DNA from: Athalassotoga saccharophila
Lineage (GTDB): Bacteria; Thermotogota; Thermotogae; Mesoaciditogales; Mesoaciditogaceae
Length of the DNA stretch: 64,000 nt
NCBI RefSeq assembly: GCF_009936215.1
Contig: NZ_AP019551.1
Span: 1,574,708-1,638,707 of the forward strand
Direction of reading: 5' to 3'
Part shown: positions 1 to 12,683 of the stretch, piece by piece
Layout of the letters: each line of letters opens with the position of its first letter
How positions within the stretch are numbered: the stretch's first letter is position 1
The notes under the pieces: model-generated
What the model saw: only the letters and a program-made list of their open reading frames with translations
Database searches by the model: none
Told to the model about the DNA's origin: nothing
Translations under genes and position numbers: made by a program

Positions 1-1469
1 TAGGGCATTTCTTCATCTTCGAGTATTCTCGAAATAGTTCCTTTGTTTCCATATCTACCAGTTATTTTGTCTCCAACCTCAAGTGGTTTTTCAACTTTTA
101 CGGGTATTCTTATCGTCAAATGACTCATGGAAATCATTTCTTTTACAAGCGGAGGAGTTATATCTCCTATTTCAAAACAATCCTTTGTTATGTTCAAAGT
201 ATATGTGTACCTTTGATCAAATAAAAAAGACCTTTTCAAATCTTTGTTTTCATTTCCATCAAAAAATACCCTTCTCCTAAGATAAAGATCGCCATACACA
301 ACATTTTGAGTTTTGACGAATTCATAAACAATCTCAATAGATTTTCCGCTTTGAACTTTCGATTGTATGACAAACTTCTTTGTACTTCTGCCAGATTCAA
401 TTATTTCATAATCGATTGGAAGCGGGACTTCATCTTCTATTTTCAGTTCTTCTCTCGATTCTATCTTCATCTTTTGAGAGAATGATTTTGAGGCGACTAT
501 TCCATCCTCAAAATTAAGACCATCAAAGAGTGCATATCCGACAAAAGCATTTACTCCTAAATCGAAGCCAATTTGGTCTTCAATGCCAGTCTTAACGATG
601 GGTTTTTCACTTCCAACGACTCTAATGGCCTGCTTTAAGTTTTTTCCTCCCATCATTGCCCTTGGCGTGTCATTGTAAGTTAAAAATGGAACGAGTAAAG
701 TCGAATAACTGAAAAAATCATTAGAACTTTTGATATCTGAATCTATGGCCAATTTTTTAGCGTTGTACCTTGCGCCGAGAGACAAAAACAAAGAAAGGCC
801 TATCTCTTCTGATTCAGGGCTTTCGAGTAGATCTATCTTCCCAAGATGTGATTTGTGTGGATATCTCATCGTGTCTGCAACAACGCTTCCATGGTACACT
901 ACTTTTCTTGTGTTGGAAATCTTAAGCAATGGATTTGATTCGTCAAGTTCAAAAAGAGAGGGAATTCTTACAAACCGTTTTGATTCTGGATCTATTTTAT
1001 GAATCTTCGTTCCTATCTCTACCGTGCTTAAATTTGCCGAGATCATGTACTCAAAAAGTTCAGATTCATCTTTGAATTGAAGTGCACGATCGTAAGAACT
1101 CATTATCTGAATGGCCTTATCCAAAAAATATCCAGGAATCACGAAAAAATTCTTTAGATCCATGTTTTTTACCTGTTCTTTCAATTGTTCAGGTTTTTCG
1201 ATAAGCACAAATGGAGAATAATAATTCTTTCCCATCCATTTGTAAATTCCATCATTTGGAATCAGGCAAAGGAATTCGACCTCTAACGGATCGTAAATCC
1301 TTGAGTTGATTTGTAATTTGACGATTTTGTATAACTCATCCTTAATAAAAAAATTACTTGTAGAGATTATCTTTAGAGCGTCGTAGTTGAAAACTTTGGG
1401 CCTGTAATTAGAAATAAAAAAATTTAATCCATCGAATATTTCTTCCATGGAAAAATCAATTTCATTAAT
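1..1469 (-). CDS. Divergent, shortened RNA polymerase beta-subunit-like protein (partial, runs off left edge)
   Basis: An uninterrupted minus-strand frame of about 489 codons runs off the window, so the C-terminus is missing. Read from the minus strand and numbered from the in-frame ATG at 1448, it carries the bacterial RpoB core motifs in the right order: DESNPL (169-174, cf. MDQxNPL), LESPESEEIGL (cf. IETPEGxNIGL), PFLTYNDTPRAMMGG (254-268, R263 matching E. coli R678), FDGLNFEDGIV (308-318, E314-D315 matching E813-D814) and GDKITGRYGNKG (459-470, K461 and K469 matching K1065 and K1073). It is far from a normal RpoB: the NPL motif lies near residue 170 instead of about 510, and NFED to GDK is about 145 residues instead of about 250, so lobe and insertion regions are mostly absent. 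The best Shine-Dalgarno (AGGAGG) is 8 nt before an in-frame ATT at 1469; the first in-frame ATG is 29 nt away. Catalytic residues look intact, suggesting an active accessory polymerase. A beta'-like partner would lie outside the window. Confidence 0.82.
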   Translation of the reverse strand, partial: MNEIDFSMEEIFDGLNFFISNYRPKVFNYDALKIISTSNFFIKDELYKIVKLQINSRIYDPLEVEFLCLIPNDGIYKWMGKNYYSPFVLIEKPEQLKEQVKNMDLKNFFVIPGYFLDKAIQIMSSYDRALQFKDESELFEYMISANLSTVEIGTKIHKIDPESKRFVRIPSLFELDESNPLLKISNTRKVVYHGSVVADTMRYPHKSHLGKIDLLESPESEEIGLSLFLSLGARYNAKKLAIDSDIKSSNDFFSYSTLLVPFLTYNDTPRAMMGGKNLKQAIRVVGSEKPIVKTGIEDQIGFDLGVNAFVGYALFDGLNFEDGIVASKSFSQKMKIESREELKIEDEVPLPIDYEIIESGRSTKKFVIQSKVQSGKSIEIVYEFVKTQNVVYGDLYLRRRVFFDGNENKDLKRSFLFDQRYTYTLNITKDCFEIGDITPPLVKEMISMSHLTIRIPVKVEKPLEVGDKITGRYGNKGTISRILEDEEMP

Positions 1470-1534: not shown

Positions 1535-1563
1535 ATTATAACATTTCTAAATCATAATTTAAA
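1535..1563 (-). promoter_or_regulatory. Promoter for the RpoB-like gene (extended -10)
   Basis: On the minus strand, TTTAAA (1563-1558) and TATAAT (1540-1535) are separated by 17 nt, and the -10 is preceded by TG (TGtTATAAT). This gives a leader of roughly 60 nt before the AGGAGG site. The region is shared with the divergent promoter of the methionine synthase operon. Confidence 0.55.
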
Positions 1564-9837: not shown

Positions 9838-10591
9838 GGTAACTACCTCCCGAATCAAGAGTACTTCCGCTGTAATAAACAAAAACCTCATCAAGGGTGG
9901 CATTGGCCTTTCCAATAGAATTTTTGAGTTCTTCAACGGTTCCGATGGCCGCGATTTTGCCAAGGTTCATTATCGCCACCCTATCGCAAAGCATCTCTGC
10001 CTCTTCCATGTAATGGGTGGTCATGAAGATCGTCATTCCGAATTCGTTCTTTAACTTTGTTACGTGATCCCATACAACTTGCCTTGCGACCGGATCAAGC
10101 CCGACAGTCGGCTCATCGAGAAAAAGCACCTTTGGATTGTGCAATAAGGCTTGGGCAACTTCGAGTTTTCTTATCATTCCGCCGGAGTAATTTCTTACGA
10201 GTTTATTCGCATGTTCAGACAAGCCCATAAAATCGAGGATGTCCATGATTCTTTGTTTCCTTACATTCGAAGGTATGTCGTAAAGTTTGGCAAAGATCAA
10301 AAGATTTTCATAGCCTGTCAAAGTTCCATCTGCAGAAAGGGCTTGTGGAACGTATCCTATAACCCTTCTTACCTTTGAGGCTTCGTGTACCACGTTAAAG
10401 CCACCGACAAAGGCTTCACCAGACGTCGGAGGCAAAAGCGTGGTCAAAATCTTAACGGTAGTCGTCTTTCCAGCCCCATTTGGGCCCAAAAGGCCAAAGA
10501 TTTCACCATTTTCTACATTTAAAGAAATGGAATCGACGGCCTTTAACGTTTTGAATGACTTTACAAGCGATCTTATCTCCACAATCGCCAA
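9794..10591 (-). CDS. ABC transporter ATP-binding protein, DrrA-like
   Basis: About 265 residues with Walker A GPNGAGKTTTVKIL, Q-loop region GYVPQALSADGTLTG, signature NYSGGMIRKLEVAQ, Walker B VLFLDEPTVGLDP and the H-loop TTHYMEEAE. The NATLDEVF segment near the C-terminus is typical of DrrA-type export ATPases. A TTG at 10591 lies 8 nt after AGGAGG and is the best start; a GTG at 10600 overlaps the ribosome site itself. It pairs with the permease downstream to form a two-gene exporter. Confidence 0.88.
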   Translation of the reverse strand: MAIVEIRSLVKSFKTLKAVDSISLNVENGEIFGLLGPNGAGKTTTVKILTTLLPPTSGEAFVGGFNVVHEASKVRRVIGYVPQALSADGTLTGYENLLIFAKLYDIPSNVRKQRIMDILDFMGLSEHANKLVRNYSGGMIRKLEVAQALLHNPKVLFLDEPTVGLDPVARQVVWDHVTKLKNEFGMTIFMTTHYMEEAEMLCDRVAIMNLGKIAAIGTVEELKNSIGKANATLDEVFVYYSGSTLDSGGSYRDSARTRKIAKRLG

Positions 10592-10958
10592 ACTAACCAC
10601 CTCCTCACTTTGAGTATAGCAATTGTTGATTTCAAAACCTTTTACTTCAAAGTAATAAAATATTTCTGAATTTTCATATCTTTTTCACAAGAAAGTTCTT
10701 TATATGTCAGACACTTAATTTTGTTGTAGACTCAGCAATTGAAGATTTTACGACTAAAATTTAGATATCATTAGAAAATAGGAGAAAAAATCGATTAATT
10801 ACTAAATAATAAAGATTATCAAGTTTAAATTTGTTTTATAAGGTTTTCTTAGTCAAAAAAATTATGATATCATTGTTATGTAAATGTTTTCATTAAACAA
10901 AACCATTCCACGCACTCTCTAAGGGGGATCAGGAGAGAAAAAGTGGAGGTGGTACAGT
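10592..10958 (+). other. Intergenic region between exporter and binding-protein genes
   Basis: 367 AT-rich bases between divergent genes with no convincing ORF. On the minus strand an extended -10 (TGcTATACT, -10 hexamer at 10613-10618) probably serves the exporter. On the plus strand an imperfect inverted repeat, TAAATG-TTTT-CATTAA, near 10880-10896 could be an operator for the binding-protein gene, but no good plus-strand promoter was identified. The Shine-Dalgarno GGAGGTGG lies just before the GTG at 10959. Confidence 0.4.
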
Positions 10959-12683
10959 GTGAAACATAACAAAGTTTTTTTCATCTTTCTTACCATCATG
11001 TCTTTGGTTAGTTTGATGCTCTTTGCCGCAACTGGTTATTCTTACTTGCAGGAATATGGTCCTGGAATAGTCAACTGGGGAAATAACGTCAAATATGGAG
11101 GAACTCTCAAAGAGGTTATGCCATGGGGACCCCAGACTTTGAATTTCAATCCTTTTGTGCCAACGAACCTACCAACTCATGCCATATACGAACCACTTTT
11201 TTACGTCAACATGTTGAATGGTGATACAACTAATTTACTTGGAACCTCTTACAAGTTCGAAGATAACAATCTTAAACTTGTTATAACAACGAGAAATGAC
11301 GTCAAATGGTCGGACGGCACGCCATTTACAGCCCAAGATGTGGCCTTTACATTCAATTACATAAAAGAATATCCCGCAATAGACGGATATGGCATATGGT
11401 CTAAGATATCGGATGTTCAAAGCGTTGTGGCAAGCGGAGATACGGTGATCTTCACATTTTCAAAGCCAAATGTTGCACTATTTCCATTCATTGCAAGTCA
11501 ACCTATAGTACCAGCACATATATGGGCAAATATAAAAGATCCTTCGACATATACGAATCCGAATCCAATTGGGACGGGTCCATTCATGCTCAAAAGTTTT
11601 TCTCCTGACAAAGTTGTGCTTGTAAAAAACCCAAATTACTGGATGAAAGGCAGGCCATATATTGATCAAGTCGATGTGTCGTACGTCGTTTCAAACACGA
11701 CTGCGTACCTTTACATGTTAAAGCACGAAGCAGATTGGTCTTTTCTCTTTGCTCCAGATCCAATAACAACTTATGTTGATAAAGATCCTTCTGTTAACAA
11801 GATATGGTGGCCTACTTACAGTGTAAATGGATTAGTCTTTAACACTCAAAAATATCCTTTTGATAATCCAATATTCAGAAGGGCAATTTCAATAGCGATA
11901 GACAAAAACAAACTTGAAAAAGAGGTGTATTTTGGAACAGGTGGTTATAATCCCAATCAGGCTGGCCTAATTCCAACCCAGTATGACTGGATGGATCCAT
12001 CTCTCGAAGCGACGAACAATTACCTCAACACTTACAATCCTCAGGAGGCTCAGAAATTGCTCGCATCAATAGGCTTCGTTAAAAATTCTGCCGGTCAACT
12101 CGTCGGTCCAGATGGTAAGGTTCTGCCTCCAATTCAACTCGTCGTTTGTGCCGGCTGCACGGATTTCATCTCGATGGGAAATATAATATCGAGCGAACTT
12201 GGACAGTTAGGAATCTCGGTTAACGTAAATCAACAGTCCGGGGGTACTTACATGGGAAGTATTACAACCGGAACATACGATATGGTCATATACTGGGGAA
12301 TTGGCGGAGGACCAACACCTTATTACGAATATTACACAAACCTTAATCCAGCCTTTTCAGCACCTAAACTTGGGGAACCTGTCATTTCAGACATATCTCG
12401 TTACACGAATCCCATCATAACTGAATCTTTGAAGGAATACTCACAAACAACCGATCCGACCGTTCAAAAGCAGGCTATATATAAAATCGAGCGCGTATTT
12501 CTTAACGAACTTCCTTATGTATCTCTAACAAATAGAACAAATTTCAACATATACAACGAATCCACGATAACTGGATTCCCATCGGATCAATATCCTTATT
12601 CTTCTGGTGGAAGCCCGGGTGCAGCGATCGGCCTTGGAAGTTCCGATCTTTTGATGACCCTTCTTAACGTTCATCTTAAATGA
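10959..12683 (+). CDS. Family-5 (peptide/oligosaccharide) ABC solute-binding protein, orphan
   Basis: 574 residues with an N-terminal signal peptide (lysine, then a hydrophobic stretch to about residue 25) and the SBP family-5 layout: YGGTLKEVMPWGP, WSDGTPFTAQDVAFTFNY, PNYWMKGRPYIDQV and FRRAISIAIDKNKLEKEVYFGTGG. It would capture peptides or oligosaccharides outside the membrane. No permease or ATPase genes adjoin it; it sits alone between an exporter and an antiporter operon and has its own terminator. It is a clear paralogue of the protein at 56503-58221; both share the WxDGxPFTxxDVAFTFNYxKxYPAxDxxGIWS pattern and end in LNVHLK. In Thermotogota such proteins often bind sugars. Start is GTG after GGAGGTGGTACA. 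Confidence 0.9.
   Translation: MKHNKVFFIFLTIMSLVSLMLFAATGYSYLQEYGPGIVNWGNNVKYGGTLKEVMPWGPQTLNFNPFVPTNLPTHAIYEPLFYVNMLNGDTTNLLGTSYKFEDNNLKLVITTRNDVKWSDGTPFTAQDVAFTFNYIKEYPAIDGYGIWSKISDVQSVVASGDTVIFTFSKPNVALFPFIASQPIVPAHIWANIKDPSTYTNPNPIGTGPFMLKSFSPDKVVLVKNPNYWMKGRPYIDQVDVSYVVSNTTAYLYMLKHEADWSFLFAPDPITTYVDKDPSVNKIWWPTYSVNGLVFNTQKYPFDNPIFRRAISIAIDKNKLEKEVYFGTGGYNPNQAGLIPTQYDWMDPSLEATNNYLNTYNPQEAQKLLASIGFVKNSAGQLVGPDGKVLPPIQLVVCAGCTDFISMGNIISSELGQLGISVNVNQQSGGTYMGSITTGTYDMVIYWGIGGGPTPYYEYYTNLNPAFSAPKLGEPVISDISRYTNPIITESLKEYSQTTDPTVQKQAIYKIERVFLNELPYVSLTNRTNFNIYNESTITGFPSDQYPYSSGGSPGAAIGLGSSDLLMTLLNVHLK

Follow-up and report, generated by a model that had tools for sequence, protein, structure and literature searches.

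Why should a bacterium with an ordinary RNA polymerase (RNAP) encode a second, much smaller protein bearing the RpoB catalytic motifs? Bacteria are taught as using one core RNAP, and extra single-chain relatives are known from phages and prophages. The protein in question begins in the 64,000-nucleotide stretch of DNA analyzed here (the window, C1:1574708-1638707 of the 2.04-Mb genome under study, G000), where the 5' part of its gene, encoding the N-terminal, RpoB-like region, occupies positions 1..1448 of the minus strand, starting at an ATG at 1448 and running leftwards past base 1. An alternative in-frame start, ATT at 1469, lies behind AGGAGG with a better-spaced Shine-Dalgarno sequence than the ATG. 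When the contig was extended leftwards, the frame was found to continue without a stop to C1:1572295, neither frameshifted nor degraded; the window holds the first third of an intact protein of 1287 amino acids. The original prediction that this is not the cell's normal rpoB is borne out by the host's ordinary rpoB (1146 aa) and rpoC (1666 aa), which lie as separate genes at C1:590599-599051.

Judged from its sequence, the 1287-aa protein is an RpoB-like and an RpoC-like core fused in one chain. Residues 168-226 match Pfam Rpb2_3 (E 5e-5) and residues 276-604 match Rpb2_6 (E 1e-37), confirming the predicted relationship to RpoB, and these are followed by matches to Rpb1_2 (residues 783-841, E 4e-19) and Rpb1_5 (residues 989-1142, E 2e-13). 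A reduced beta' partner had been expected beyond the left edge of the window; the beta' moiety is instead the second half of the same chain, so that beta and beta' are fused and a reduced beta' gene of its own does not exist. Similarly, the NADFDGD-like motif that was sought next door does exist, but as GADFDGD at residues 823-829 of this protein rather than in a neighboring gene. The A-D-F-D-G-D of this catalytic Mg motif is invariant across 24 homologues. The profile of the family matches solved bacterial beta and beta' chains with E-values down to 5e-78. Identification of the protein as a polymerase is near certain.

The RpoB catalytic series read from the N-terminal part also proved correct. 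K461, K469, E314-D315 and R263 (E. coli K1065, K1073, E813-D814 and R678) are invariant across the 24 homologues and ESPES is invariant or nearly so, in an alignment with more than 100 invariant columns at 36% mean identity. The invariant columns also include R719/R725 (switch 2) and D996, K997, K998, T1008 and R1009 of the bridge helix, and the fork is conserved as well. Both the bridge helix RGRKSMLDKKLHVAEAGYFTRKMV and the trigger loop GERGTQLSMKTF are conserved, the latter with the pattern GE-GTQ--M--F. The trigger-loop histidine is replaced by glutamine in G000 and is present as histidine in many homologues. Of the proposed working second RNA polymerase, the divergent second enzyme with intact catalytic residues therefore stands, and we infer its activity from these residues.

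Much of the remaining architecture is not recognizable. The Pfam search of the 1287-aa chain gave no match to Rpb1_1, Rpb1_3, Rpb1_4, Rpb2_1 or Rpb2_2. Most of the beta lobe and protrusion, whose loss had been anticipated, was unrecognizable both by Pfam and by comparison of the family profile with PDB chains, as was the flap detail. On the beta' side the same holds for the rim helices, for the N-terminal region, which contains the clamp helices, and for most of the chain past the trigger loop. The beta' clamp helices are the docking place of sigma70 region 2, and since this region is unrecognizable, sigma70-type initiation by the single-chain enzyme looks unlikely.

How does this protein compare with known polymerases? 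It is homologous to bacterial RpoB and RpoC over both double-psi barrels, the bridge helix, the trigger loop and the switch regions, but is one chain of 1287 aa rather than two (1146 + 1666 aa), and the separate beta and beta' subunits with full domain sets that characterize the cellular five-subunit core are not found in it. Its best NCBIfam matches are the fused polymerases of Helicobacter and Wolbachia (PRK09603, PRK14844), in which beta is likewise followed by beta' in one chain; those models are 2839-2890 long, however, and the G000 fusion is under half that length. Fusions of the Helicobacter/Wolbachia type are the sole core enzyme of their cells, whereas the G000 host keeps a normal rpoB and rpoC. 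The nearest experimentally studied single-chain relative is YonO of SPbeta, an active DNA-dependent RNAP with few residues in common with msRNAP (PMC5467207). YonO shares with the present enzyme the single chain, the catalytic aspartate triad and separateness from the host RNAP, but the polymerases described here align with msRNAP over hundreds of residues, are accompanied by a sigma54-like factor and an activator, and lie at CRISPR loci.

These companions are encoded directly after the polymerase, outside the window: a gene that we call X (G000:C1 1571451-1572341, minus strand, 296 aa, likely start 1572305) and an AAA+ protein (C1 1570082-1571473, minus, 463 aa). The order RNAP-X-AAA+ protein, on one strand and with the genes overlapping or a few bases apart, was found at nearly every locus with enough contig. 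Among the Thermotogota cassette loci X was detected in 23 and the AAA+ protein in 25, and the cassette recurs in Synergistota, Desulfobulbaceae, Methylobacter and Nitrospirota, with family sizes of 180-320 aa for X and 430-490 aa for the AAA+ protein. The latter is a sigma54-type activator (bEBP), as indicated by Pfam (PF00158, E 2e-35) and by structural similarity to NtrC1 (Z 24.6). Its GAFTGA-like L1 loop reads GSFTGS in G000 and G[AS][FYW]T[DG][AS] across the family.

The cassette activators share their AAA+ domain type with the usual bEBPs, including RtcR, but have no C-terminal HTH (a usual, not universal, feature of bEBPs) and end at the AAA lid. In the structural model, the N-terminal domain looks Rossmann-like, with CARF and receiver as candidate identities. 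The best PADLOC model is RtcR_PspF2 (CARF_AAA_HTH, E 1.7e-52), which matches over the AAA part only; RtcR (CARF-AAA-HTH) is a precedent for a CARF-controlled bEBP (PMC9650030). One genome (G010, L199:8484-9944, minus) has a cassette-type bEBP with neither RNAP nor X, adjoining an unrelated 1035-aa gene, and this copy may serve another partner, a point that speaks against the defence-regulon reading set out below.

Factor X proved harder to place. Thermotogota X gave nothing convincing in Pfam, NCBIfam, PADLOC, PDB sequences or against a Thermotogota RpoN alignment, and profile comparison found no detectable similarity to RpoN or to the Nitrospirae counterpart described below. Its sequence does have a Q/K/R-rich N-terminal helix region and an acidic stretch, resembling sigma54 Regions I and II. 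An AlphaFold model built from 23 sequences has pLDDT mostly above 90 over residues 111-280. Foldseek returned sigma54 as the best match, a weak one (E 0.32), while with VIA-align the 15 best matches were all sigma54 (Z 5.7-3.9, the next unrelated match at Z 3.3), although common fold arrangements can by themselves give a Z of 5.7. In this alignment residues 76-192 of the model pair with sigma54 269-404, which suggests a resemblance to the ELH-HTH region. At a Nitrospirae locus (L096), the gene in the position of X is flanked by a 2296-aa RNAP and a 661-aa activator, and its product has a recognizable sigma54 DNA-binding domain (PF04552, Sigma54_DBD, E 3.5e-14; TIGR02395, E 2.5e-14). The RpoN box, which reads the -24 element, is not visible in Thermotogota X and is degenerate in the Nitrospirae protein.

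It is the predicted structure and this counterpart that tie X to sigma54. We think it quite likely that X is a strongly reduced sigma54-like factor, probably derived from sigma54, and it would act as an initiation factor. It would differ from sigma54 in missing the RpoN box and most of the core-binding domain, and in serving a core enzyme that is presumably not the host RNAP. G000 also has an ordinary RpoN and other bEBPs, which likewise counts against the defence-regulon reading. The RpoN core-binding domain was matched in 60 of 103 Thermotogota genomes, both carriers and non-carriers of the cassette among them, so that its presence is uninformative.

The genes beyond the cassette place it in a defence setting. 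Away from the polymerase, X and the bEBP are followed by a CYTH-CARF-HD effector (C1 1567487-1570072, minus, outside the window; PADLOC CARF_CYTH_HD, E 1.3e-127) and by a Cmr operon (below C1 1567451, minus, outside the window) with a Cmr1-type RAMP, Cas10, Cmr3, CARF-RelE and further genes. Beyond it, a second Cmr set, cas6, DarTG, a 23-repeat CRISPR array, a UDG-like gene and the type I-B genes cas8b-7-5-3 complete a CRISPR-Cas context of types I-B and III-B with CARF effectors. The neighborhood is one shared with type III accessories such as CARF-CYTH-HD and CARF-RelE; unlike these, the RNAP and X have no PADLOC model. Other Thermotogota and Synergistota cassettes adjoin cas6, CARF effectors and I-B or III operons, and the Nitrospirae cassette lies near an RT-Cas1 gene, so that CRISPR linkage is seen in three phyla (Thermotogota, Synergistota and Nitrospirota). 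No cas genes were seen within the stretch read around the Desulfobulbaceae, Desulforudis and Methylobacter cassettes. We found no description of a CRISPR-linked RNA polymerase or polymerase accessory in the literature searched, whose coverage stops short of subscription papers.

Several further features of these loci were recorded. A conflict-system protein, TCAD9 (L074:1584-5132), lies directly 5' of the Methylobacter cassette, and near the most divergent Thermotogota cassette a 782-aa protein (L053:985-3333, genome G011) combines a TBP-TOTE domain with a C-terminus like that of UvrD helicases. In G000, a 548-aa transposase-like ORF (L010:15247-16893) sits on the opposite strand between cmr3 and cmr4 of the second Cmr set. 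The Cmr1-type RAMP heading the first Cmr operon is only 146 aa (L003:11012-11452), with 10582-11011 behind it holding no listed frame, and may be truncated. A 165-bp piece of the CRISPR array, repeats and spacers included, is duplicated exactly, the copies lying 202 bp apart (L010:8734-9100).

The best explanation for this arrangement, to which we give a probability of roughly 60%, is a dedicated, activator-dependent single-chain RNAP that transcribes a defence regulon. This reading draws on the fusion, the conserved active site, the conserved cassette, the CRISPR linkage and a locus-exclusive motif 5' of defence genes, each established at the level of sequence. The enzyme would retain the catalytic cores of beta and beta' and have lost the lobe and protrusion as well as the beta' N-terminal region in which the main sigma70 docking site lies. 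Its partner X would be a minimal sigma54-like factor with a Q/K-rich N-terminal helix, an acidic stretch and an ELH-HTH-like domain, and the activator a sigma54-type AAA+ protein that has an N-terminal Rossmann-like sensory domain and no DNA-binding tail.

The cassette itself would be expressed by the ordinary polymerase. A sigma70-type extended -10 element, TGTTATAAT, is found at window positions 1535..1540 (minus strand; a consensus match only), 92 nt 5' of the RNAP ATG, and on a reading of their sequences sigma70-like TATAAT boxes precede cassette RNAP genes. The cassette thus appears to be transcribed by the ordinary enzyme and not via its own motif. The N-terminal domain of the activator would then sense a signal, most likely of infection, and the AAA+ ring would remodel the RNAP-X complex at promoters with a single -12-like element, AAAGTGTrnnTAwAAannTG. 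A ring acting from solution would fit an activator with no HTH, and a single -12-like box followed by an A/T-rich stretch would fit a factor that keeps the ELH-HTH and has no RpoN box. Genes switched on in this way would include cas6, cas8, the cas10/Cmr operons, the CARF effector, DarTG, a RecQ-like helicase and tiny hydrophobic peptides, and the likely benefit would be expression that persists once phage proteins shut off the host polymerase. Both the infection trigger and this advantage under host shut-off are proposals.

The motif came from repeat finding in the G000 CRISPR locus, where a 21-bp promoter-like element, AAAGTGTGATTA..., stands before several genes. Its consensus is the single -12-like element given above. 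A 12-mer of the motif occurs five times in the G000 genome, all at the CRISPR locus. With up to 2 mismatches, the 21-bp motif has six G000 sites, all on the minus strand within 24 kb (C1:1545878-1570090; starts at 1570090, 1567488, 1550874, 1549348, 1546237 and 1545898, outside the window), compared with two for the reversed control, in a genome-wide test based on G000's own sites alone. These sites lie 36-56 nt 5' of cas6, DarT, a 50-aa ORF, the UDG-like gene, the CYTH-CARF-HD gene and the Cmr1-type RAMP. No motif precedes the G000 CRISPR array; the nearby copy faces the 50-aa gene, away from the array.

Beyond G000, lineage-specific versions (GATTATAAA, AAATGTATA, ACTTAAAAA, with GTGTAWAA after AAAGTGT) occur in about half of the other Thermotogota cassette loci. 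Across cassette loci there are 46 sites compared with four in the reversed control, an excess that is partly circular because the matrix was built on the same loci. Strict matches fall near the RNAP in 5/6 cases in G000, 4/5 in G019, 3/5 in G024 and 4/4 in G029. Two families have DarT behind the motif (Pfam E 3e-34 and 1e-32), and three genomes have cas6 there (in G019 by sequence look-alike); the motif also heads a I-B operon (L046, Cas8 by position only) and precedes a Csm1/Cas10 gene 226 nt away (L038), a Cas2-like ORF identified by eye (L033) and a RecQ-like helicase (L029). Looking blindly within individual 20-kb loci for 12-mers that recur upstream of genes gave nothing useful.

Tiny ORFs of 28-63 aa, often hydrophobic, were also seen directly behind the motif, several adjoining CRISPR arrays (L010:8238(-), L116:9125(-), L031, L040:2400, L055:16035, L102:19390 and L105:8107). 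They are possibly small toxins or membrane peptides.

Is this motif a promoter? The alternative that survives best accepts the cassette as a real polymerase system and takes AAAGTGT as an operator bound by a different regulator of the CRISPR locus, perhaps a dimeric protein of the CARF-HTH or WYL type. The RNAP would then have other templates, for instance the DNA of an invader or a single adjacent operon. Palindromic copies (AAAGTGT-N6-ACACTTT) lie 5' of the RecQ-like helicase in Mesotoga-like genomes, as would suit a dimeric regulator. About 14 of 27 cassette loci have the motif, which leaves half of them in which it was not seen, and it was not found in Synergistota or the Petrotoga-like group. 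Good copies also occur in genomes in which the RNAP was not detected (G009, G010, G020 and G023), where another factor could therefore read them. Against an operator, the typical site is asymmetric, 19-22 bp long, followed by an A/T-rich stretch and TGR, and positioned like a promoter 27-60 nt before starts; one -12-like element is what an X with no RpoN box predicts; and the lineage-specific variants recur within each cassette locus. We consider an operator unlikely on balance, and suggest that the motif is a promoter used by the single-chain RNAP, with the palindromic copies and the copies in genomes of undetected RNAP as the main loose ends of the defence-regulon reading. The palindromic versions (AAAGTGTGATTATACACTTT) are at L102:10017, L104:13188 and L114:6102; in the first two loci the gene that follows is large and resembles the RecQ-like helicase preceded in L029 by a direct copy of the motif. 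Two palindromic strings searched in IMG/VR gave no match.

A survey for a polymerase pair had been suggested; judged by bit score, 27 of 103 Thermotogota genomes, from 9 of 11 families, carry a fusion rather than a pair. Identity is 46-50% in the nearer Thermotogota and mostly 37-45% in the rest. When 84,980 species genomes were scanned with the family-specific stretches MG[GSA]KN[LM]KQ and FEDGIV, relatives outside the phylum turned up among Synergistota, Desulfobacterales/Desulfobulbaceae, a Desulforudis bin, Methylobacter, Ozemobacter, Nitrospirae, Jettenia, Latescibacterota and others. Three scan matches were ordinary rpoB. Single-chain beta-beta' proteins from a Lentisphaerae bin (L080:3453-8384, 1643 aa) and a Jettenia bin (L095:1572-7691, 2039 aa) score closer to ordinary rpoB/rpoC.

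In a quick unrooted tree (870 columns), all cassette-type RNAPs form one group (support 99), apart from the viral split and from cellular RNAPs, and show no close relation to the host's own rpoBC. The Nitrospirae, Jettenia and Latescibacterota enzymes (about 2000-2300 aa) branch nearest the other side of the tree, and those of Thermotogota are the smallest. Long branches make the depth of this tree uncertain.

As a second alternative, the cassette may be a transcription system taken over from a phage that continues to serve a mobile element and is only carried along in the CRISPR neighborhood. Caudovirales phages of the mReC type encode msRNAP homologues (PMC7481178), and the same signature scan found about 70 viral contigs with single-chain beta-beta' polymerases. 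A spacer in the G019 array (AACAACGTAAAAGTGTAAATGTACACTTTGAGGAGTAAG, L100:16240-16290) includes the motif in the form found in that host, and an invading element may therefore carry it. Viral enzymes share the signature peptides of the scan and many are fused, but the single-chain ones are mostly 2000-2850 aa and form a separate group (support 100), outside the cassette clade in the unrooted tree. On the viral contigs fetched, neither X nor a convincing bEBP adjoins the RNAP at any locus. The CRISPR association also holds across three phyla, and no phage structural genes were recognized beside the G000 cassette. We therefore regard phage capture as improbable. Matches in phage and plasmid collections were mostly ordinary rpoBC and phage msRNAP, none covering 80% of the query. 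Of the 80 IMG/VR contigs L119-L198, most encode a single-chain beta-beta' RNAP of about 2000-2850 aa and a handful have separate beta and beta' genes.

Of the uses originally envisaged for the enzyme, a defence setting is supported by the I-B and III-B systems and CARF effectors, but nothing points to RNA-templated or non-templated synthesis. A type III effector making signaling or protective RNA (non-templated or primer-like) instead of mRNA would suit the adjoining CARF effectors and Cas10 cyclases. It is nevertheless very improbable, because the enzyme keeps everything needed for DNA-dependent elongation (bridge helix, trigger loop, switch 2 and fork) and is constantly accompanied by a sigma54-like factor and a sigma54 activator. 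Together, the trigger loop, bridge helix, promoter-like motifs and activator appear to fit DNA-templated, promoter-directed transcription. That the enzyme is a decaying, functionless rpoBC duplicate is hardly credible: one cassette is indeed broken (G059, L055, with RNAP pieces in different frames, a TAG stop and a shortened bEBP), but the other Thermotogota genomes have open frames of 1231-1525 aa, and the invariant columns of the 24-sequence alignment, the conserved operon and the distance from the host's own rpoBC all speak against decay.

No kind of system known to us devotes a second polymerase of cellular type, together with an initiation factor and an activator of its own, to defence; each part alone belongs to a known superfamily. 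Our analysis suggests a separate transcription machine reserved for defence in certain heat-loving bacteria and in a small number of other lineages. At somewhat less than even odds, we can picture an immune system that would own an orthogonal apparatus of polymerase, sigma54-like factor, ATP-driven activator and private promoters, turned on by CRISPR or infection signaling so that effectors and abortive toxins would be expressed despite a phage-disabled host RNAP. If true, this would be a new layer of immunity, namely transcription that survives host shut-off. Sigma54-type activation could then be studied in a minimal model, and orthogonal expression would gain a compact tool. Moreover, the enzymes range from 2296 aa in Nitrospirota down to about 1230-1525 aa in Thermotogota while the sigma54 partner appears to erode alongside, a series that makes the reduction of a multisubunit polymerase directly open to study.
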